Part shown: positions 4,858-61,031 of the stretch, piece after piece
Layout: every line of letters starts with the position of its first letter
How positions within the stretch are numbered: position 1 is the stretch's first letter
Source: Gracilibacillus suaedae
GTDB taxonomy: Bacteria > Bacillota > Bacilli > Bacillales > Amphibacillaceae
Reading direction: 5' to 3'
DNA: 64,000 nt
Assembly: GCF_017599345.1 (NCBI RefSeq)
Contig: NZ_JAGFVL010000040.1
Location: forward strand, 62,001-126,000
Made by a program: the position numbers and the translations under genes
The notes under the pieces: model-generated
Seen by the model: the letters and a program-made list of their open reading frames with translations, nothing else
Databases searched by the model: none
What the model was told of the DNA's origin: nothing

Positions 4858-6039
4858 TTGAATAGACAAAAGCTTTTGATTAAAAACATGAAAATTTATG
4901 CAGAAAACCGGAAACTTCATAACGGATTCATTAAAATCAAGGATCATATCATCGAAGAAATTGGTACATTAGACCAATTAACAACAGAAGAGGAATACCA
5001 AATCCTTGATTTTTCAGATAAAAATGTAAAGGCGATACCTGGATTAATCGACGTTCATATACATGGCGCCAACGGAGCTGATGTGATGGATGGCACGAAA
5101 CAGGCATTGCGAACAATGGCTGATACATTACCGAAAGAAGGAACGACTTCTTTTTTAGCGACCACCATGACCCAAAGTAACGACGATATCGAAAGAGCGA
5201 TTAAAAATGTCGCTTCTTACATGGGTCAGCAACATCCAGGGGTAGCAGAGATTATCGGGATTCATTTAGAAGGGCCTTTCATCAACATTAAGCGAAAAGG
5301 AGCACAGTCTGAAGAACATATTACAGAACCAAATATTTCACTGTTTCAAAAATGGCAGCAATTAGCGAACAAACAAATAAAACTTGTCACACTTGCACCA
5401 GAAGTAAATGGTGGAATGGAATTAGTTCAGCATTTAAAAAGCCAAGGCATTATTGCATCAGCAGGACATACCGACGCTACCGCTGACGAAATTAAGACAG
5501 CTATCAAACATGGCTTATCTCATATTACACATTTATATAACCAGATGCGTGGCTTTCATCATCGGGAACCAGGTGTAGTAGGTGCTGCATGGCTACAGAA
5601 TGAACTGATGGTAGAAATGATTGCTGATGGTGTTCATTCCACACCTGAAGCGATTCAGACAGCTTTTGAACTCAAAGGGAAAGACAGATTACTTTTAATA
5701 ACTGATGCAATGAGAGCTAAGTGCTTGCACGATGGTCACTATGACTTAGGCGGACAAAAAGTCAATGTCGTAGAACAAAAAGCTAGACTGGAGGATGGCA
5801 CGTTGGCAGGCAGCACTTTAAAATTGGGTGATGCACTGAAAAATATCATTCAATTTAGTGGTTGTACTTTCGAGGAGGCAATCGCCATGACTTCCGCAAA
5901 TGCTGCTAAAGAATTGGGTATGATAAACAGAAAAGGTACCATTGCCGAGAAAAAAGATGCCGATATCGTTTTATTAGATGATAACAATGATATCATTCTT
6001 ACACTTTGCCGCGGAGAAATTGCTTACGAAAGGATGTAA
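4858..6039 (+). CDS. nagA: N-acetylglucosamine-6-phosphate deacetylase
   Basis: A 393-residue amidohydrolase-superfamily enzyme that converts GlcNAc-6-phosphate to glucosamine-6-phosphate and acetate in the cytoplasm. Visible family motifs are PGLIDVHIHG (about 61-70, metal-binding His pair), HLEGPF near 136-141, ASAGHTDA near 200-207, the HLYNQM segment near 224-229 and the catalytic Asp in ITDAMRA near 282. The start is TTG at 4858 after TAAAGGTGTG; the next in-frame ATG would delete the first strand. It is the first gene of the plus-strand operon, six bases before nagB, downstream of NagR-type operator 2. The length is normal for the family. Confidence 0.95.
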   Translation: MNRQKLLIKNMKIYAENRKLHNGFIKIKDHIIEEIGTLDQLTTEEEYQILDFSDKNVKAIPGLIDVHIHGANGADVMDGTKQALRTMADTLPKEGTTSFLATTMTQSNDDIERAIKNVASYMGQQHPGVAEIIGIHLEGPFINIKRKGAQSEEHITEPNISLFQKWQQLANKQIKLVTLAPEVNGGMELVQHLKSQGIIASAGHTDATADEIKTAIKHGLSHITHLYNQMRGFHHREPGVVGAAWLQNELMVEMIADGVHSTPEAIQTAFELKGKDRLLLITDAMRAKCLHDGHYDLGGQKVNVVEQKARLEDGTLAGSTLKLGDALKNIIQFSGCTFEEAIAMTSANAAKELGMINRKGTIAEKKDADIVLLDDNNDIILTLCRGEIAYERM

Positions 6040-8652: not shown

Positions 8653-8733
8653 ATGGGAATCGCATTAATTATCGGTGTTTGCGTTGCATTTTTTGTGGCT
8701 ATCTTCGCTGCGGGATATGAAGCGAAACAATAG
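8653..8733 (+). CDS. Small single-pass membrane peptide (26 aa)
   Basis: AAAGGAGGAGACTC precedes an ATG encoding 26 residues: MGIALIIGVCVAFFVAIFAA then GYEAKQ and a stop. One hydrophobic helix (about 2-20) is followed by a short charged tail, so an N-out or N-in membrane peptide is expected. The unit has its own near-perfect promoter, a textbook ribosome site and an intrinsic terminator four bases after the stop, so it is very likely a real gene despite its size. I do not recognise a family. Its position directly after murQ may be incidental. Confidence 0.72.
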   Translation: MGIALIIGVCVAFFVAIFAAGYEAKQ

Positions 8734-8736
8734 GTA

Positions 8737-8770
8737 AAAGGCTTGCTTTTGGTTGAAAGCAAGCCTTTTA
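8737..8770 (+). terminator. Intrinsic terminator after the small peptide gene
   Basis: A 13- to 14-bp stem (AAAAGGCTTGCTTT with AAAGCAAGCCTTTT) with a short loop, ending in T-rich DNA. It probably ends both the peptide transcript and read-through from murQ. Confidence 0.85.
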
Positions 8771-8780
8771 ATTTGTAAGT

Positions 8781-9105
8781 TAAGAAAGCATAAAATCAGC
8801 GCAATGACTGCGTTAAGCGAAGTAGTTATGTTGAAATGTTTATGTCTATTTGCAACAATTCTTGTCATAAGTAATAGGTTGACTTTTTTACAATGGACAA
8901 AGTGACAATCGTTATCCGTGAGTATAAAAGCAACTGTGTTACTTCCTGCTAGTGTTGTAGAGCAGATCTTAACGAAGGGCGCCCATTTCCACTCCTGTGG
9001 GAATTGTTTTACCTGAAGATCCACTTTTTCGAACGGGTTTTGCTCGAAAAAGTTAGCTGAAGGCCAAACCTCACGGAAAGCAGCCGGAGTGGTGGTCAAG
9101 CAGTT
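8781..9105. repeat. Dispersed repeat family R1, copy A
   Basis: This fills most of the 456-bp gap 8771-9226. Bases 8781-8855 are the reverse complement of 23690-23765 with few differences. Bases 8990-9100, read on the minus strand, match 34120-34245: CTTTTTCGAGC-loop-GTTCGAAAAAG inside a larger stem starting CCCACAGGAGTGG. The rest of the gap shows nothing codable. A 144-codon open frame on the minus strand is translation of the repeat, since the other copies carry different frames. Confidence 0.7.
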
Positions 9106-18363: not shown

Positions 18364-18399
18364 AAAAGGTATACCTGTGTTAGTAGGTATACCTTTTTT
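18364..18399. terminator. Bidirectional intrinsic terminator between malR and yhfI
   Basis: AAAAGGTATACCT and AGGTATACCTTTTTT form a symmetric stem with A and T runs on both sides. It ends both convergent genes; the stop codon of the minus-strand hydrolase gene overlaps its edge. Confidence 0.85.
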
Positions 18400-19123
18400 A
18401 TATAGTAATCGATCGACCGACTACTGCTATTGTTGCTTGATTGCTATATGTTTGTTCCGCCTCTTTCAATATATTTTGGACATTGCCGAAATGAGGTAAA
18501 TGAGTTAGTATCAGTTGTTTAGCGGCTGCTTTTTCTGCCAAGGCCCCCGCTTGTCGACCACTCACATGGCCTGGAATTTTCCCTTCATATTCCTGATAGA
18601 GATTAGCCTCCGAAACCAACAATTCAGCATGTTGACAAAACGGGATCAACGACTTTTCCCAGCCAGTATCCGCTGTAAAGACGACCTTTTTCCCTTTTGC
18701 CTCTAATCTTATTGCTAAACAGTATACAGGATGATTCGTCTCTGTTGTCTCTATTGTAAAAGGACCTATTTGTGACGATTTGATTATATTATATGCTTCA
18801 ATATGTTCTTTATAAGATAGAGAGTGGTACTGTTCATCCCGATCATGCGCATATATAGCTAATGTTTTAGGTTGATCTGCTAATTGGTTTTGGATTAATT
18901 TTGCGTAATGAAGCGCTCCGACATCCGCAATATGATCATGGTGGTAATGGGTGATAATCACCGCATCTAATTGCTGAATAGATATGTAATTTTGTAACGA
19001 CGCAAGTACACCACTACCACAATCTAATAACAGATGAAACCCGTCTTCCTCGATTAAAAAAGAAGATGTAGCACTATTTGCCTTCGGGTAGCCTCCCCAA
19101 ATACCTAGAGGGATTATTTTCAT
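18398..19123 (-). CDS. yhfI: Metallo-beta-lactamase-fold hydrolase, YhfI-like
   Basis: A 241-residue metallo-hydrolase. HYHHDHIAD near 61-69 supplies the HxHxDH metal site; ADTGW near 151-155 and the C-terminal LILTHLPHFG give further ligands. The closest family I recognise is B. subtilis YhfI, related to ribonuclease Z/phosphodiesterase-type MBL proteins; the substrate is unknown. The start at 19123 follows AAAAGGAGTTGAGCTC. The frame is open for another 95 codons upstream, but that part is translation of a 51-bp tandem repeat and is not believed to belong to the protein. Confidence 0.88.
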   Translation of the reverse strand: MKIIPLGIWGGYPKANSATSSFLIEEDGFHLLLDCGSGVLASLQNYISIQQLDAVIITHYHHDHIADVGALHYAKLIQNQLADQPKTLAIYAHDRDEQYHSLSYKEHIEAYNIIKSSQIGPFTIETTETNHPVYCLAIRLEAKGKKVVFTADTGWEKSLIPFCQHAELLVSEANLYQEYEGKIPGHVSGRQAGALAEKAAAKQLILTHLPHFGNVQNILKEAEQTYSNQATIAVVGRSITI

Positions 19124-19210
19124 GAGCTCAACTCCTTTTATAGAAATCAATTGGCTTCTGTTTCGTTTCAGTGTTAAACCACATCTTAGGGTCAGCTTTT
19201 GCTTGCTTAT

Positions 19211-19425
19211 GTCTTCTAGATTCTGCTTCTCGAAGACACTTTTGCTCATTTTAGCTTTCTTTTGTCCTCGAGAGCGCTTCTCGAAGACACTTTTCTTCAT
19301 TTTAGCTTTCTTTTGTCCTCGAGAGTGCTTCTCGAAGACACTTTTCTTCATTTTAGCTTTCTTTTGTCCTCGAGAGTGCTTCTCGAAGACACTTATGCTC
19401 GACTTCACACTTTTTTATCCACGAG
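19211..19425. repeat. 51-bp tandem repeat upstream of yhfI
   Basis: Four head-to-tail units begin near 19211, 19264, 19315 and 19366. The middle ones are spaced exactly 51 bp and nearly identical; the outer ones are diverged. Each unit has a small inverted pair CGAGA...TCTCG. Read on the minus strand each unit would encode SVFEKHSRGQKKAKMKK, which keeps the frame open into yhfI because 51 is divisible by three. Unit junctions have no unique spacers, so this is not CRISPR. It occupies most of the 380-bp gap 19124-19503. Confidence 0.85.
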
Positions 19426-19448
19426 ATTGCTAAATTAGTTCGCATGTA

Positions 19449-54507: not shown

Positions 54508-57500
54508 TTATTGTATCATCTTTTGATTTCTTTTTCTAACAATTACTAATAATCCGATCCCTAATCCTAACAATAATCCACTTGCTAACAACCAATTAAA
54601 GATGTTAGTTGCAGTGTCTGGTAAATCAATACCTCCTTTTGATTCTTCATCAGCCGCTAATACACCATAAGTTGAGAAGTGATCTACTGTTGTAGTTACG
54701 ACACCATCGCTTACGTCACCACCAATAAGCTCCCAACTATTAGTTGCTTCATTATAATAATAAATCGCTACATTTTCCGCATTTTCGTCATGTCCCATGA
54801 TTAATTGGAATTCACCAGTATAATTTTCAAAACCTTCTGGGAAAGTAAATTCAAACGTATATACATCCCCCGCAACTTTAAGGTCTCCTAAGTTTTGAGG
54901 CTGTGCTTTTTCAACAACTAAAGTCGTTCCTTCCGGTAAATCGCTTGGTAAAATCACTTTAGTTGGTGTATCGGCAATAGCGATTAGCATATCTGCAGCT
55001 ACTTCTATTTCTTCACCTACTTCAACTTTCATTTCTTTCGTGTCATTTCTTGATTTATTATTATCTTTATTCTCATCTTCTGGGGTTTCCGTTCCTTCAC
55101 TATCACCATCTTGTTCAGATTCATTACCAGGTGATTTATGATCATCTCCAGGATTATCTGGTTTTTCACCAGGCTTTTCGTCAGACCCGTCACCTGGTTC
55201 TTTATCTGAATCCTCATCTGGATCTTTATCTGGTTCTTCTATCGGATCTAACGCATATGGATCCCAGCCTTTTAATACATTTTGTACGGTCCAGTCGGCA
55301 GCTTCTTCATCTGTTAACTGTCTACGTGAATCATTGATTACTGCTCCTGGTCCTTTATTTTTATACTCATATAAACGTGCATCTTCAGGCTGTAAGCCAC
55401 TCATTGATGTCCAGCCTTCTGGTTTGATATGCTCACCAAGTTTACTTTCCATGATGACAACACTGCCAATTGCATCCGGGTTGCCACCAGCTGGCCATGG
55501 CCTGCCTAAATATACAGTTTCTGCAGGTGCATCACTCGTAAATTTACTGTCGACAAATAACATGCCGTGTTCTTCTGAAATTAATGTACTGGCTGCGGTT
55601 ACATAACCATTATTAGAGTCTGAGCCTCGATCCAATGAATGAATAACAGAATCTTCAATGACAATACTTGCGCCGCCAAAAATAAAGTCAACATCCCCTT
55701 CGATATAGACATCCCCATAATACTGCGTACCAGAATGAGCATATAACGTATCTTGATTTCCGATAAAACGGACATCATTGAAATATTGACGATCACCACT
55801 GGCATATACTGCTACAGCCTGTTTCCCTTCGACATCAGCACTTTCATCAAAGGAATTTTCCAATGTTAGATTTTCGATACGAAGATCATCAGCCCGTAGA
55901 TAGACACTGGCACTGCCACTTGTCCCAAGCGTTCCACCTACACCATTGTCACGACCAGCATAATTATCATACGTAATGATCGTATCGTTTTTGCTTTCAC
56001 CTAATAAAGTAATAAATGGTTTATTCGTTGGAATAGTGACTACTTCTTTGTACGTACCATCTTTAATAAAAATGGTGACAGGATTACGATTGTTTTCCGG
56101 AACTGCGTCAATTGCAGCTTGAACAGTCTCATAATCTCCTGATCCATCCTGTGCAACAACTAAATGACTTTCGATCTCATTCATTTCTTTTGTTTGTCCT
56201 TCCAATACTTTAATATCATCTTGTACTAATGTTCTGCCATTTACATCAACAGAGTCGGTACCTGTTACTTGAACAAATACTTTATCCGTATAGTCTCCTG
56301 TCGTTTGCATAATTTCCAACAGCTGTGTTGCCCAATGGCCTCCCCAGGAATAACCGTCTCTTCTTTCCGCTTCTATTTCCATGATATCATGTTTTATCAC
56401 ACCATCACGGCCAGAGAATATCGGTTTATTCGTACCGATTTCATAGAAACGGTACCACGCAGTTGAATTCGAATCTTCTACAAAGTATTCATTGTTAGGA
56501 TCACCGCTGACATATCTGGTATTTTCCAATTTCACTTCATCAAACCATTCTAACGCTGCTAATACAGCTTCATTAATTTCCTCGGTCTGTGGTTGAGACA
56601 TTAAATAACGAATAATCCCGACTGACTCAGATCCTGAGATGGAAGGATGCTCATATGAACGAGCTTCTCTTGGTTCATACGTATATGGATCATGCTGTGC
56701 ACACCAAGCAGTTAATTTACCATCCACTTCAATCTGTGCATTTAAAATATAGTCAACAGCTAATTCAATCGACTCCTGTGATTTGATTACATACTCTTCA
56801 CTGACCAGATCAGAATCAAATGGATAACGTTGTTCTGCCACTAAATCCAATAATTCCAATACATTAATCATTGCTTCATCATTGAAGGTTACGTAGTCAG
56901 AGTAGTTGCCCCGTTCAGGATAAACCTGTGCAAAGCCTCCTGTTTCATACTGGAGCTTGAATAAAAACTCTAAACCTTTTTCGATGCTTTCCTTATATTT
57001 AGGATCTTTCGTTTCTTGATACACCTCTGCTAAATATTGCAGCTCTGAAATGGTCGCACCATTATCAATCGTACCTAATTCAACACCATCTTCTACCCAC
57101 TCTGATCGTGATTCTTCACCATCCCAAGGACGAGTATAAATGTGTGACCAGTTTTTCGTCCATCCACCGTGATCCATTTGCCATGTTAATAGATTATCTG
57201 CTTCTTCTACAGCCGTATCTAAATCACCGGAGAATCTTGTTTCCTCAAATTCGACTGGATACTCAGCATACTCGTTCCATTCGTCTAAACTATGCATCAC
57301 AATAACTGTTTGACCAAATTGGTTAGTAGCCGTTGCCGCCTTGTCCATATTTAAATTTGTAAATCCTGGTGCTAAAAGCTCCCATCTTCTCGTCGGAGCT
57401 ACTACCTCAAGATCAGTTGGTGTAAATTCTTCAAAGTAGCCGTTTAATGTAACAACAAGTAGATTGTTAGAAACAGCGTGTACACCAGCAATATCGATGG

Positions 57501-60054
57501 TTTCACTTTCATTTTCCCCTTCTACTAATGCTACTAAATCTTTTGCTTCACCCCACGTTACTTGTTCACTTTCTGACTCAGTAGTTTGATCAGATACTGA
57601 CTGTATAATTTGTACCGCTTCAGCACCTGTAATTGTCTCATCTGGGTTAACATGATTATCACGCACTAAGTGATTGGCATACCCTAATCCTTGAGCAGTC
57701 TCTAAGACATAGGAGTACCATTCTTCCGTAGATGTTTCCCAAACAGCTTCTTGCTTACTCAATCCTTTAAATTTTTCTTCATGAATATAACCTAAAGCCT
57801 GATTCACTAATGCAAAAAATTCTATTCTGGTAATTGCTTCGTCATTCGCTGGAAGTTCGTTCACTACGATGCCTAATTCTTTTAGTTTTTTCAATTCAAC
57901 TCCACTAACCACTTCTTCTATATCAACTGCTTCGACTTCTATTGGATTTTCGTTGTCTGCATCTGATTTATTATGCACACGCAAATGGTCAATGTTTGCT
58001 CCACCGCTTGGTCCGACTCCAGTAGCCCGAATCGTATTATCACCGGCCTGTAGTACTGCCTTCGCAGACGTATACTCCCAATTCGCCCAGTCACCTGTCG
58101 GATCAAATGCAAGTGCTTCTTCGACTACTTCACCATTGACTTGAATTTCTGCTGGACGCTGATCTGTACCACCGTGTCCATAACGGAAGTCTAAGAAATA
58201 CTCTCCTTCTACCGGAACATTGACTGTCCACTCCACCCAGCTTCCAGGAGCGTTAGGACTATAATCGATAAAACCGTCTCCAGTAAAACCGACATGTTTA
58301 TTATCAATTATCACTGTATCCTCTTCTAATTCCGCTTCTTCCGCTTCATATATCTCATCATATTCCATAAAAACACGTAAGTGATCAATGTTCGCTCCAC
58401 CACTTGAACCGACACCTGTTGCACGAATAACATTCTCGCCTTCTGTTAATGCTGCTTTTGTAGAAGTTTGTTCCCATGCTGTCCAATCACCTGTCGGGTC
58501 AAAAGCTAACTCTTCTTCTACTACTTCACCATTCACCTCGATTTCAGCAGGACGAAGATCTGTACCACCATGAGCGTAACGGAAATCTAATGTATACTCC
58601 CCATCTGCAGGCACATCCACTACCCATTCGATCCAGCCACCTGGAGCATTCGGAACATAATCAACAAAGCCTGTACCGGTAAAACCAGCATGTTTGTTAT
58701 CAATAATCGCATCATTAAAATTTGCATCTTCCGCTTCATAAATATTTCCACCAACAGGTCCTGATGGTTCTTCTGGTTCCTGTGGCTCTTCTTCCTCCGG
58801 TTCTTGATAAAGATCACCTGAAATTTTTAAGTCATCAATATGGTGTCCATCTGTTCCACTGTTAGGAGTGAAGCTTTCCACAAAATTAACTTTTTCTGCC
58901 GGTTGATTAAGCTCAGCCTCTTCATGCACTAGCTCATCATCAATATAAACATTGGCATGCTGAGCGTCCAAATCAATCTCCACTGTCACTTTATACCAAG
59001 TTTCTTCTTCTACTTCTACTAACGGATGATATTGATCACCTGTGCGATATGTTATAGACCCATCTTTTGTTTCAATTATTACCGGTGTACTATCACCTTT
59101 TATCCTCATCACTTTGGTTGAGCTGGTATAGTTTGGCTGCATAAATAACACTTCAAATGTCGCTACACCGCCAAGATCCTCCACTGATTTACTTAAAATA
59201 ACATTTATATCATCACTTGTATCATCAAGGAATACACTCTTATTCTCCTCAGACGGCACATCGACTACCGTTACGGTTCCTCCACCTTCTGATCCATCAA
59301 CATTTGCAGGAACCTCACCTGTTACATCATCATTAAAATCTGTTTCAAAAACAAAGTCTGCTTCCGGTGTTTCCGGTGGCAGTTCTACTTCCTCTAATTG
59401 TGAAATACGAAGATCATCAATATAATGTCCCAATTCTTTACTTCCAGGAGTAAATGATTCCATATAATTGATTTTGGATGCATCCTCGTAAAATGCTGCC
59501 CCTTCTACTTTTAACTCATCATTGACATAAGTATCAACTGTTTTTTCTATTAAATCTACTTCAACTTTTAGGTCATACCATTGATTCTCTTGCACCTCAA
59601 CTAAATTTTCATAAGAATCATCACTGTTTCGGTAGCCAATATAGCCATCATTCGTTTCAATAATGACCGAGGTACCGTCACCTTTAAGACGCATGACTTT
59701 TGATGAACTTGTATAAGTTGGCTGCATAAATTTCATCTCGATCGTTACTTGTTTATCCAAGTCATCAAATGATTTAGAGACTAATACATCATCACTCTCA
59801 CTAGTGTCATTCAGATATACACTTTTATTTTCTGCATCAGGTAACGCTTCAACTGTGACTTCTCCCCCAGCTGCAGATACATCTAAATTTACTGGTGCTG
59901 TACCTGTTTCATCATCATTAAAATCATCCTCAAAGATAACAACGTTGTTAAAATCAGACTCAGCTTGTACCAGCGTGACTGGCATTGTAGAAAATACAGT
60001 CGTAAACGTTAACATAAAAATAAGGAATACGTTGATTGCTTTTTTACCATTCAT
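54508..60054 (-). CDS. Giant cell-wall-anchored pectinase: PL10 pectate lyase fused to CE8 pectin methylesterase
   Basis: An 1848-residue secreted protein. In order: signal peptide (1-31, VQA end); two related beta-sandwich modules (about 38-215 and 232-412); two CBM35/CBM6-like carbohydrate-binding modules (about 433-565 and 568-700, both with IDNKHxGFTGxGF); an SLH-like region (about 715-840); PL10 pectate lyase (about 935-1255; WQMDHGGWTKNW, RFYEIGTNKPIFSGRDG); CE8 pectinesterase (about 1295-1590; GNQDTLYAHSGTQYY, VDFIFGGA, YLGRPW with catalytic Asp pair and Arg); an acidic Pro/Asp/Lys linker; a beta domain (about 1678-1790); LPDTA sorting motif (1811-1815), helix and RKR tail. De-esterification and cleavage of pectin are thus done by one surface protein. 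Confidence 0.92.
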   Translation of the reverse strand: MNGKKAINVFLIFMLTFTTVFSTMPVTLVQAESDFNNVVIFEDDFNDDETGTAPVNLDVSAAGGEVTVEALPDAENKSVYLNDTSESDDVLVSKSFDDLDKQVTIEMKFMQPTYTSSSKVMRLKGDGTSVIIETNDGYIGYRNSDDSYENLVEVQENQWYDLKVEVDLIEKTVDTYVNDELKVEGAAFYEDASKINYMESFTPGSKELGHYIDDLRISQLEEVELPPETPEADFVFETDFNDDVTGEVPANVDGSEGGGTVTVVDVPSEENKSVFLDDTSDDINVILSKSVEDLGGVATFEVLFMQPNYTSSTKVMRIKGDSTPVIIETKDGSITYRTGDQYHPLVEVEEETWYKVTVEIDLDAQHANVYIDDELVHEEAELNQPAEKVNFVESFTPNSGTDGHHIDDLKISGDLYQEPEEEEPQEPEEPSGPVGGNIYEAEDANFNDAIIDNKHAGFTGTGFVDYVPNAPGGWIEWVVDVPADGEYTLDFRYAHGGTDLRPAEIEVNGEVVEEELAFDPTGDWTAWEQTSTKAALTEGENVIRATGVGSSGGANIDHLRVFMEYDEIYEAEEAELEEDTVIIDNKHVGFTGDGFIDYSPNAPGSWVEWTVNVPVEGEYFLDFRYGHGGTDQRPAEIQVNGEVVEEALAFDPTGDWANWEYTSAKAVLQAGDNTIRATGVGPSGGANIDHLRVHNKSDADNENPIEVEAVDIEEVVSGVELKKLKELGIVVNELPANDEAITRIEFFALVNQALGYIHEEKFKGLSKQEAVWETSTEEWYSYVLETAQGLGYANHLVRDNHVNPDETITGAEAVQIIQSVSDQTTESESEQVTWGEAKDLVALVEGENESETIDIAGVHAVSNNLLVVTLNGYFEEFTPTDLEVVAPTRRWELLAPGFTNLNMDKAATATNQFGQTVIVMHSLDEWNEYAEYPVEFEETRFSGDLDTAVEEADNLLTWQMDHGGWTKNWSHIYTRPWDGEESRSEWVEDGVELGTIDNGATISELQYLAEVYQETKDPKYKESIEKGLEFLFKLQYETGGFAQVYPERGNYSDYVTFNDEAMINVLELLDLVAEQRYPFDSDLVSEEYVIKSQESIELAVDYILNAQIEVDGKLTAWCAQHDPYTYEPREARSYEHPSISGSESVGIIRYLMSQPQTEEINEAVLAALEWFDEVKLENTRYVSGDPNNEYFVEDSNSTAWYRFYEIGTNKPIFSGRDGVIKHDIMEIEAERRDGYSWGGHWATQLLEIMQTTGDYTDKVFVQVTGTDSVDVNGRTLVQDDIKVLEGQTKEMNEIESHLVVAQDGSGDYETVQAAIDAVPENNRNPVTIFIKDGTYKEVVTIPTNKPFITLLGESKNDTIITYDNYAGRDNGVGGTLGTSGSASVYLRADDLRIENLTLENSFDESADVEGKQAVAVYASGDRQYFNDVRFIGNQDTLYAHSGTQYYGDVYIEGDVDFIFGGASIVIEDSVIHSLDRGSDSNNGYVTAASTLISEEHGMLFVDSKFTSDAPAETVYLGRPWPAGGNPDAIGSVVIMESKLGEHIKPEGWTSMSGLQPEDARLYEYKNKGPGAVINDSRRQLTDEEAADWTVQNVLKGWDPYALDPIEEPDKDPDEDSDKEPGDGSDEKPGEKPDNPGDDHKSPGNESEQDGDSEGTETPEDENKDNNKSRNDTKEMKVEVGEEIEVAADMLIAIADTPTKVILPSDLPEGTTLVVEKAQPQNLGDLKVAGDVYTFEFTFPEGFENYTGEFQLIMGHDENAENVAIYYYNEATNSWELIGGDVSDGVVTTTVDHFSTYGVLAADEESKGGIDLPDTATNIFNWLLASGLLLGLGIGLLVIVRKRNQKMIQ

Positions 60055-60123: not shown

Positions 60124-60984
60124 TTATGCTTGATTACGGAATTGCTTAGGAGTTACATGTTGATATTTCTTAAAGCATCTTATAAAGTTAGATGCTGTTG
60201 AAAAACCAATTCGGGAAGCTATTTCTGCAATAGGTATGCTAGTTTGCCTCAGTAATTTCTTCGCTTCATACATTCTTCTTTGTAATATATATTGATGAAT
60301 CGTCATACCAAACTCTTTTTTAAAAAAGTGACACAAATAATATTTATTAAAGTGTAACTTGCCGGCAAGATCCTCTAATTGCCAATTGGTATTCCAAAGA
60401 CTGTTGATTTCTTTTAAAATCCTTTCTTGTGTACGAACTGGATTTGCCGCTGATTCTTGAAAAGTTCGCTCCTTTGAAGTTTGTAATGATCGACAGAAAA
60501 AGAGCAATAATTCTGATATATAAAGGATTAATGCATGTTGATGTTGCCAATTATTCGGGGACATATCTTCTTGTAATAGTTGACGAATAATATGATGAAA
60601 ATTATCATATCCACGTTCTTCTATTTGCAAAAAGAAATGTGGTGTAGGCTGTTGATTTAATAGGCGTTTAAATGCTTGAAAGATCGGCTGTTCATAGCAA
60701 AATAAATCATCCTGAAACATGATCATCACGCGATCATATGCTTGATTATCTGGTAAATTTACCTTATGTAGCTTCTCACTATTAAACAAAAAAACATGAC
60801 CTCTCTTCAAATGAAATACTCTTTCTTCAAAAATAAATTGTGCTTCTCCATTTCTCACCCATACGATTTCATAGCCTCGATGAGAGTGAAAATCTTTTGG
60901 TGTATGGTTATCCACCTTATGTTGGATCGTAAATGCTGGCATGTCCTGTTGTTTTTGCACGGTTTCTAGTTTCTCTATTAACAC
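60124..60984 (-). CDS. AraC-family regulator upstream of the pectinase gene
   Basis: A 286-residue regulator with an N-terminal cupin domain (about 20-95; DFHSHRGYEIVWVRNGEAQF) and a C-terminal AraC DNA-binding domain (about 185-284) ending FIRCFKKYQHVTPKQFRNQ. The start is GTG at 60984 because GGAGGTGAAAGA directly precedes it; an in-frame ATG at 61020 would lie within the cre site. It is co-directional with the pectinase gene (69-bp gap) and probably its activator. Its own expression should be carbon-repressed. Confidence 0.86.
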   Translation of the reverse strand: MLIEKLETVQKQQDMPAFTIQHKVDNHTPKDFHSHRGYEIVWVRNGEAQFIFEERVFHLKRGHVFLFNSEKLHKVNLPDNQAYDRVMIMFQDDLFCYEQPIFQAFKRLLNQQPTPHFFLQIEERGYDNFHHIIRQLLQEDMSPNNWQHQHALILYISELLLFFCRSLQTSKERTFQESAANPVRTQERILKEINSLWNTNWQLEDLAGKLHFNKYYLCHFFKKEFGMTIHQYILQRRMYEAKKLLRQTSIPIAEIASRIGFSTASNFIRCFKKYQHVTPKQFRNQA

Positions 60985-61005
60985 TCTTTCACCTCCGTCA
61001 ATAAT

Positions 61006-61031
61006 AGAAAACGTTTTCATTTTGTATTATA
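61006..61031 (-). promoter_or_regulatory. AraC-gene -10 box with cre site over the transcription start
   Basis: On the minus strand TATAAT (61031-61026) is followed by TGAAAACGTTTTCT (61019-61006), which differs from the CcpA consensus TGNNANCGNWNNCA at one position. The site is just downstream of the -10, a repressing position. The -35 is poor. Confidence 0.7.

Follow-up and report, generated by a model that had tools for sequence, protein, structure and literature searches.

The Pectinase Gene and Its Anatomy

The stretch of DNA analyzed here (the window) comprises 64,000 nucleotides of the Gracilibacillus suaedae genome (C37:62001-126000, contig NZ_JAGFVL010000040.1), which is 4.65 Mb in size and rated 100% complete. 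Positions 54508-60054 of the window hold a single unbroken open reading frame (ORF) of 1848 codons, running from ATG to stop, that encodes a putative cell wall-anchored pectinase. The ORF lies on the minus strand, a point absent from an earlier reading of the DNA made without database searches (the sequence-only reading), and it is the only long frame there; the plus strand is interrupted by many stops. Among the loci compared, the nearest named relative is that of Gracilibacillus lacisalsi DSM 19029, which matches residues 1-1848 and is 91% identical in its best segment, in a comparison that may leave out records very near the window. The features of the gene are as follows.

54508-60054, minus strand: whole gene, PL10-CE8 pectinase with predicted LPDTATN anchor, 1848 aa (ORF, translation, Pfam, NCBIfam)
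59962-60054, minus strand: putative signal peptide, residues about 1-31 (read by eye from a short, basic N-terminus followed by a hydrophobic stretch and LVQA-ES)
58801-59952, minus strand: two homologous N-terminal beta-sandwich repeats, residues about 35-225 and 229-418 (PF22585, two stretches)
57967-58743, minus strand: two CBM35/6 modules, residues about 438-563 and 565-696 (PF03422 and PF16990, two stretches each)
57505-57957, minus strand: degenerate SLH-derived module, residues about 700-850 (motif positions ITRIE, ITGAE, VTWGE)
57190-57474, minus strand: small domain ahead of PL10, residues about 861-955 (precedes PL10 in most compared relatives)
56320-57180, minus strand: PL10 pectate lyase domain, residues 959-1245 (PF09492, E 9.7e-112; 1gxm alignment)
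55267-56163, minus strand: CE8 pectin methylesterase domain, residues 1298-1596 (PF01095, E 1.2e-53; 1qjv alignment)
55045-55248, minus strand: acidic linker, residues 1603-1670 (27 D/E among 68 residues)
54643-55044, minus strand: wall-proximal, putatively GAIN/ZU5-like beta-sandwich, residues 1671-1804 (model and fold matches)
54673-54681, minus strand: H1792-F1793-S1794, predicted self-cleavage site between F and S (near-invariant triad; loop joining the final two strands of the model)
54604-54624, minus strand: LPDTATN sorting motif, residues 1811-1817 (NF058670, 43.9 bits)
54511-54603, minus strand: hydrophobic stretch and basic tail that complete the sorting signal, residues 1818-1848 (PF00746)

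The sequence-only reading had described one multimodular protein of 1848 residues with two beta-sandwich modules, two CBM35/6-like modules, an acidic linker, and a sortase motif, and the ORF together with the Pfam and NCBIfam matches bears out each of these parts. The N-terminal repeats match the Sialidase-like CBM model PF22585, and either repeat used as a query also matches the other one in relatives. The CBM_6 and CBM_35 stretches are closest to the solved chains 2w47 (8.5e-33) and 2w1w (9e-33), and the Gram_pos_anchor model (PF00746) matches residues 1805-1844. The DNA of the linker contains an imperfect 12-bp tandem repeat (55194-55249).

Two Catalytic Domains in One Chain

The identity of the PL10 and CE8 domains is unmistakable at the level of sequence. 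PF09492 scores the PL10 domain at 373.4 bits (cut-off 22) and TIGR02474 at 339.2 bits (cut-off 189.8), whereas PF01095 scores the CE8 domain at 182.2 bits (cut-off 27), so the proposed union of a pectate lyase and a pectin methylesterase in one chain is upheld by profile models for both enzymes. The active-site positions are also intact. In the alignment with 1gxm, all six PL10 positions are kept (D997, N998, D1059, R1132, R1202, and R1216), corresponding to the catalytic residues D389, N390, D451, R524, R596, and R610 of Pel10A of Cellvibrio, the protein in PDB entries 1gxm, 1gxn, and 1gxo. Likewise, all five CE8 positions are kept in the alignment with 1qjv (Q1434, D1435, D1456, R1518, and W1520); these Q/D/D/R/W positions are the catalytic ones in PemA. 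The sequence-only reading had named missing catalytic residues as something to look for, and none is missing among these eleven aligned positions.

The PL10 domain resembles Pel10A of Cellvibrio (E 3.6e-75); however, the structure of Pel10A is that of a single-enzyme chain, whereas in the window protein PL10 is fused to CE8 and predicted to be wall-anchored. Similarly, the CE8 domain resembles PemA-type pectin methylesterases (1qjv and 2ntb; E 3.2e-48), which are stand-alone enzymes, whereas here CE8 is C-terminal to PL10. The PemA equivalog model NF041896 gives the domain 192.9 bits, far under its cut-off of 700; the domain belongs to the CE8 family but is not a PemA equivalog. Overall, the pectinase appears as a well-formed member of known enzyme families, and both its architecture and its enzymes are of kinds already known.

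A Class D Sortase and Its Many Probable Substrates

The C-terminal LPDTATN exceeds the cut-off of the LPxTATN signal model NF058670 (32 bits), in keeping with a genuine sorting signal, and the matching sortase that the sequence-only reading called for is encoded in the genome. It is a class D enzyme of 197 aa on contig C20 that scores 240.5 bits against the "LPxTATN-specific" model NF058671 (cut-off 140). PF04203 detects only two sortases in the genome (E ≤ 0.001), this one and a class B sortase (SrtB, by TIGR03064) whose locus holds ABC-transporter genes; no class A sortase is among these matches.

LPxTATN signals above the NF058670 cut-off occur at 24 places in the genome. The place at C29:229625 is a frame of 71 residues that lacks an LPxT motif; it is probably a fragment and was excluded from the Pfam scan; four of the 23 proteins scanned end at a contig edge. 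Catalytic domains of polysaccharide-degrading PL, CE, or GH families are present in 12 of the 23, namely the PL10-CE8 protein of the window, one protein each with GH5, GH10, GH13, GH16, GH18, GH26, GH30, and GH53, and three with GH43, and a thirteenth protein has a weak GH32-type match. The remaining proteins include three with nucleotidase or metallophosphatase domains, one with a PAP2 domain, others with repeat or unassigned domains, and one without any match. The general LPXTG model TIGR01167 finds 26 places above its low cut-off, consisting of the 23 LPxTATN places other than that fragment and three more (C50:17120, C24:1382, and C58:25706) that score 16.2-17.8 bits and whose matches begin after the motif. 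Because the general model adds only these three weak, motif-less places, LPxTATN is the main sorting signal of this genome and seemingly the main route to its wall. The suggestion that LPDTA implies a non-housekeeping sortase was, therefore, right in kind, the signal not being of the LPxTG type, but it does not point to a special sortase, given that LPxTATN is the main signal. The idea that LPxTA marks an exotic sortase is not supported, in view of the 24 signals, the finding of class D and SrtB only, and the LPDTA signal of B. subtilis YfkN described next. Across the genus, all 17 genomes searched have the LPxTATN signal (1 to 28 matches each; E ≤ 1e-5) and a class D sortase above cut-off.

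Two characterized systems offer comparisons. In Bacillus subtilis, the sortase YhcS displays YfkN (LPDTA) and YhcR (LPDTS) (PMC3222306). The systems are alike in combining a class D sortase with an LPDTA signal; however, YhcS is described as having two nucleotide-degrading substrates, whereas the Gracilibacillus genome has 24 signal matches, half with polysaccharide-degrading domains. Paenibacillus sp. JDR-2 holds single CBM-bearing enzymes on its surface and takes up their products locally (PMC4765114). The likeness lies in individual CBM-bearing enzymes on the surface and local uptake of products, but the enzymes of that strain are anchored by SLH domains, whereas the window pectinase is predicted to be anchored by sortase and has a degenerate SLH module only.

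Two more LPxTATN proteins are encoded just past the end of the window (C37:127697-132638, locus L092), one of the choice-of-anchor I type and the other a GH5 cellulase with CBM46.

A Widespread Wall-Proximal Domain

Between the acidic linker and LPDTA lies a folded domain of about 130 residues that is absent from the sequence-only reading. Many other large proteins of the genus have a C-terminal part that matches residues 1671-1804. By iterated profile, the domain recurs in 13 further LPxTATN proteins encoded by this genome, so that with the query 14 of 24 have it, as do 9 of the 12 polysaccharide-degrading LPxTATN proteins. In a sample of the phylum, at least 143 of 398 genomes encode it (E ≤ 1e-5), a lower bound obtained with at most 10 candidates scored per genome. 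The predicted model is a confident beta-sandwich with a predicted local distance difference test (pLDDT) score of 92.8. Fold matches at ranks 1-10 are all adhesion G protein-coupled receptor (GPCR) entries (BAI3 and CD97) and ankyrin ZU5 entries, with a probability of 1.00, template modeling (TM) scores of 0.54-0.63, and E-values of 2.8e-4 to 1.4e-2. Based on this model, the domain is probably of the GAIN/ZU5 fold type.

Sequence models place the domain less directly. A search of solved-structure profiles with it gave nothing useful. Pfam returned many unrelated weak matches, among them also the Nup98 autopeptidase (3.3e-4, in 2 of 29 copies) and FIIND (0.06, in 1 of 29). NF006937, a multifunctional nucleotidase model, matches 21 of the 29 aligned copies (best 7.5e-18), and the window copy matches the C-terminal part of this model weakly (7.3e-4). 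We take NF006937 to be a YfkN-type model, so that the matches would constitute a likeness to B. subtilis YfkN.

The alignment of 29 copies revealed that the three most conserved columns are consecutive and correspond to H, F, and S, with 27 copies having HFS, one HFT, and one SFS; the triad falls between the last two strands of the model, the place at which GAIN and ZU5 domains undergo self-cleavage. We examined this pattern in a wider set of 89 loci outside this genome, comprising 29 loci that the search returned and 60 chosen manually from the further matches listed, the latter being among the better-scoring ones and mostly having a match that reaches the profile end. These loci hold 92 domain copies, all of which cover the triad: H at -2 is present in 88 and S/T at +1 in 91, with both in 87, and in the set made non-redundant at 60% identity the counts are 60/64 for H and 63/64 for S/T. 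The middle residue varies (F, L, W, and a few others), whereas +1 is only S or T with one A. H is also the most conserved column of the wider set, although an upstream W and G equal or exceed the S/T column by entropy.

Because the original profile itself contains the triad, the search was repeated with the triad blanked. Among 1707 ORFs, this yielded 136 copies, 133 covering the triad, with non-redundant counts of 79/84 for H and 83/84 for S/T. With the profile cut before the triad, a text pattern finds H-x-[ST] near the end in 128 of 136 copies, and three of the eight others end early or are cut. The control is strong for the motif but not for the frequency of the domain, because the ORFs include loci obtained with the original profile. 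Bias of the search profile as the source of the H-x-S/T pattern is ruled out, given that the pattern persists when the triad columns are blanked or cut.

What follows the domain was classed for all 92 copies, with simple text patterns for the SLH and sorting classes. SLH repeats come next in 72 copies and a sorting signal in 7; in 5 the stretch ends there, and the other 8 are of different kinds. Four of these eight run to the stretch end, three have a hydrophobic stretch at the C-terminus as judged by eye, and one stops soon after the domain.

As a side observation, the SrtB locus (L114:2-2152 and 4935-5723) includes, besides its ABC-transporter genes, a gene for a repeat protein (heme/iron type by eye) with a copy of the GAIN/ZU5-like domain well inside and an NTKTAD-type signal at its C-terminal end.

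Predicted Self-Cleavage

Liao et al. in 2014, in work on an ancient GAIN/ZU5/Nup98 domain, reportedly extended ZU5-like domains to bacteria. Zhang et al. (2012) had earlier suggested that ZU5 domains undergo autoproteolysis in bacterial surface proteins that also contain glycohydrolase domains (PMC3482391). What our analysis adds is that the domain stands directly before sortase or SLH anchors, together with the statistics on H-x-S/T and a connection to an array of class D sortase substrates. GAIN domains are cut within H-X-S/T, ahead of the S/T, and the pieces remain attached (PMC13062082, PMC11697300), and PIDD and Nup98 undergo the same reaction at HF/S (PMC3210808). In the latter account, altering the histidine of Nup98 made little difference, so H would not be strictly needed. 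By analogy, we predict from the model and the motif that the wall-proximal domain cuts itself between F1793 and S1794. The likeness to the GAIN/ZU5/Nup98 domains consists of the predicted fold and an H-x-S/T triad before the last strand. The differences are that the window copy has no Pfam-level similarity above cut-off, that it is bacterial and stands directly ahead of a wall anchor, and that its self-cleavage is a prediction, unlike the autoproteolysis of the GAIN/ZU5/Nup98 domains.

Several observations weigh against self-cleavage. The E-values of the fold matches are modest, with only two under 0.001; no Pfam ZU5, GPS, or FIIND match is above cut-off for copies of the domain; and the weak Nup98 and FIIND matches are absent when 10 copies are scanned one by one. 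BAI3 (4dlo), the top fold match, is ADGRB3, the B3 receptor. PMC13062082 calls the B3 receptor cleavage-inefficient and states that H-X-S/T alone is not sufficient, given that GAIN domains with the motif can stay uncleaved. In addition, the active site of the ZU5 superfamily is CxH according to Zhang et al. (PMC3482391), and the sole Cys of the whole protein is C1118, which is inside PL10.

The foremost alternative is that the domain is a non-cleaving ZU5-like stalk in which H-F-S is kept for folding, leaving the enzyme fixed by an unbroken chain. Ankyrin ZU5 entries are among the fold matches, and ankyrin ZU5 domains are not known to cleave themselves; the insufficiency of the motif in GAIN domains (PMC13062082) argues in the same direction. 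However, an H at -2 and an S/T at +1 around a variable middle residue form the pattern of a hydroxyl nucleophile with its base, and this pattern is the same when the triad is omitted from the search profile. A stalk of this kind is possible, but we regard it as the less probable of the two readings of the domain.

Relatives and History of the Anchor

The core of CBM35, SLH-like, PL10, and CE8 domains is present in many species of Bacillaceae and Paenibacillaceae, mostly without a sorting signal. Among the open-licence papers listed in literature searches, we noticed neither a PL10-CE8 fusion nor a sortase-anchored one, a statement that extends to those papers only. We constructed a tree of 40 PL10-CE8 rows from which five duplicate rows, reversed-order proteins, and CE8-less proteins had been removed beforehand. 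All nine anchored proteins fall in one 12-row Gracilibacillus group that also includes two unanchored proteins and one protein cut by a contig end. The anchor state requires two changes on this tree (1 to 2 across bootstrap trees). Because both nested unanchored proteins, L124 (genome G016) and L125 (genome G011), terminate inside the wall-proximal domain, we read this history as one apparent gain followed by one later loss; by eye, no relic of a sorting signal was recognised downstream of either.

Judged by the C-terminus, an anchored pectinase is encoded in 9 of the 17 genus genomes and an unanchored one in 5, and for three no complete copy was obtained. LPxTATN matches number three in G011, one in G016, and three in G014, which has a short unanchored type of pectinase. 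The LPxTATN set and the pectinase anchor may thus shrink together, but the link is not strict, because in G005 the pectinase is unanchored yet 18 signals are found. Anchoring of PL10 proteins is not confined to Gracilibacillus, because the CE8-less PL10 proteins L026 (Evansella) and L044 (Amphibacillus), which are absent from the tree, end in sorting-type signals.

These distributions bear on the possibility that the sorting signal goes unused and the protein is a secreted enzyme. Most of the compared PL10-CE8 relatives, as well as two members of the anchored group, are without a sorting signal, and the unanchored pectinases in 5 of 17 genus genomes speak against an anchored reading to the extent that anchoring is dispensable. 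Moreover, YhcR and YfkN are counted in the B. subtilis secretome although YhcR is sortase-anchored (PMC11458576). Set against this are a signal above cut-off and a dedicated sortase, retention of the sorting-type C-terminus in 9 of 17 genus genomes, and 23 other LPxTATN matches in the genome (one a motif-less fragment), which together make a purely secreted enzyme unlikely.

Three further observations concern pectinase genes elsewhere. The genome itself encodes a second pectinase fusion of 1741 aa on contig C29 with the reversed order fn3-CE8-PL10 and without a sorting signal (L113:4457-9682); the same genome, then, has one anchored and one apparently free fusion. A third CE8 gene on this contig (C29:144538-145320, L131) is broken, with one TGA and one TAA within the match. 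In two genus members (L129 and L130), adjacent genes encode a PL10 protein with LPDTATN and a CE8 protein with an LPNTFNG ending, that is, the two enzymes as separate side-by-side proteins, each with an anchor-type end.

A Degenerate SLH-Derived Module

The sequence-only reading had reported an SLH-like region and pointed to SLH and LPxTA anchoring acting together as unusual. The SLH ancestry of residues about 700-850 is real, although the module is degenerate. Pfam gives no SLH match in the window protein at E 1 and none at E 0.1 for the region alone; however, PF00395 matches 19 of 32 aligned sequences of the region, the window copy not being among them (E ≤ 0.1; best 4.5e-12), and the alignment profile matches the SLH domains of Sap and others among solved structures (9e-5). 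The 15 best fold matches of the region model are all SLH, with nothing comparable after them (E 1.2e-3 to 0.16, TM 0.39-0.43); none reaches E 0.001, and residues 150-200 of the model, which are mostly from the next domain, are unreliable.

SLH repeats carry a conserved Arg in a TRAE-type motif. This Arg is kept in one of the three repeats here, the third of which is shortened, and in all three repeats in only 1 of the 32 aligned sequences. Profile searches found no SLH domain in the genome at E ≤ 1 and no pyruvyl transferase CsaB at E ≤ 0.001. CsaB is above cut-off in 7 of 7 pectinase-carrying Paenibacillus genomes versus 3 of 24 other genomes searched, and it stays below cut-off or undetected in all four named Gracilibacillus genomes that encode the anchored form. 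Because the genome searches revealed neither a further SLH protein nor CsaB, the module is probably a relic kept for structure and not a second anchor, and the joint anchoring is not borne out. A working second wall anchor beside LPDTA would draw on the SLH ancestry, the fold matches, and the CsaB pattern in Paenibacillus, but it is highly improbable in a genome without SLH domains or CsaB, in a genus whose four named anchored-form genomes have no CsaB above cut-off, and with the motif Arg and third repeat so eroded. A candidate tie between loss of the third SLH repeat and gain of the sortase signal was ruled out, because short unanchored forms exist (L005, L008, L011, and L012).

Proposed Mode of Action

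That the protein is a cell wall-anchored bifunctional pectinase is highly probable on the features described earlier; for the fuller reading, in which the wall-proximal domain also cleaves itself, we estimate a probability of about 0.55. In this scheme, the two CBM35/6 modules and the two beta-sandwich repeats would hold the substrate, CE8 would de-esterify homogalacturonan, and PL10 would then cleave the resulting polygalacturonate by beta-elimination. Sortases of this type cut between T and A of the motif; the class D sortase would cleave LPDTA at this position and attach the protein to the wall, where the SLH-derived module would serve as a structural relic and not as an anchor. The protein would be one of about two dozen probable class D substrates, half of them polysaccharide-degrading enzymes, and therefore one tool in a surface array that retains its products. 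Self-cleavage between F1793 and S1794 would mean that, after sorting, only 21 residues (S1794-T1814) remain on the wall as a stub, with the last beta-strand alone holding the enzyme.

This Gracilibacillus, in which no other SLH protein is detectable, seems to harvest polysaccharides with an array displayed by a class D sortase, and the display strategy known from SLH-anchored Paenibacillus enzymes would extend to sortase anchoring. The wall-proximal domain is the more consequential part of the protein. If self-cleavage takes place, the enzyme would be retained in a way that resembles how adhesion GPCRs keep their extracellular part, and it could be shed under pull or unfolding with a short stub left behind, providing a simple release switch for surface display. 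More broadly, the chances seem even that surface enzymes of the phylum are generally joined to their sortase or SLH anchors through a self-cleaving domain of the GAIN/ZU5-like kind. Many surface enzymes of the phylum would then be covalently displayed but non-covalently held, which could bear on the presence of sortase-anchored proteins such as YhcR in the secretome.

Neighboring Gene and Other Features of the Window

One neighboring gene is a probable partner of the pectinase.

60124-61020, minus strand: AraC-type regulator, probable partner (AraC-family matches; just upstream of the pectinase gene and on the same strand)

An AraC-type gene is found just upstream on the same strand in 8 of the 16 relatives' loci examined; those in L003, L004, L006, and L025 are close, and those in L013, L014, L015, and L027 are at 24-27% identity.

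Elsewhere in the window, a 51-bp tandem repeat is present at 19224-19394 (3.4 copies, 96%; repeat region 19224-19431), overlapping the N-terminal part of the ORF at 18398-19408 and an opposite-strand ORF at 19122-19433. Short translated stretches of the form TTTPAA...EKVDLQ are alike at L002:2397-2639 and at window positions 8665-9099, which lie far apart in the genome, and are perhaps a dispersed repeat.

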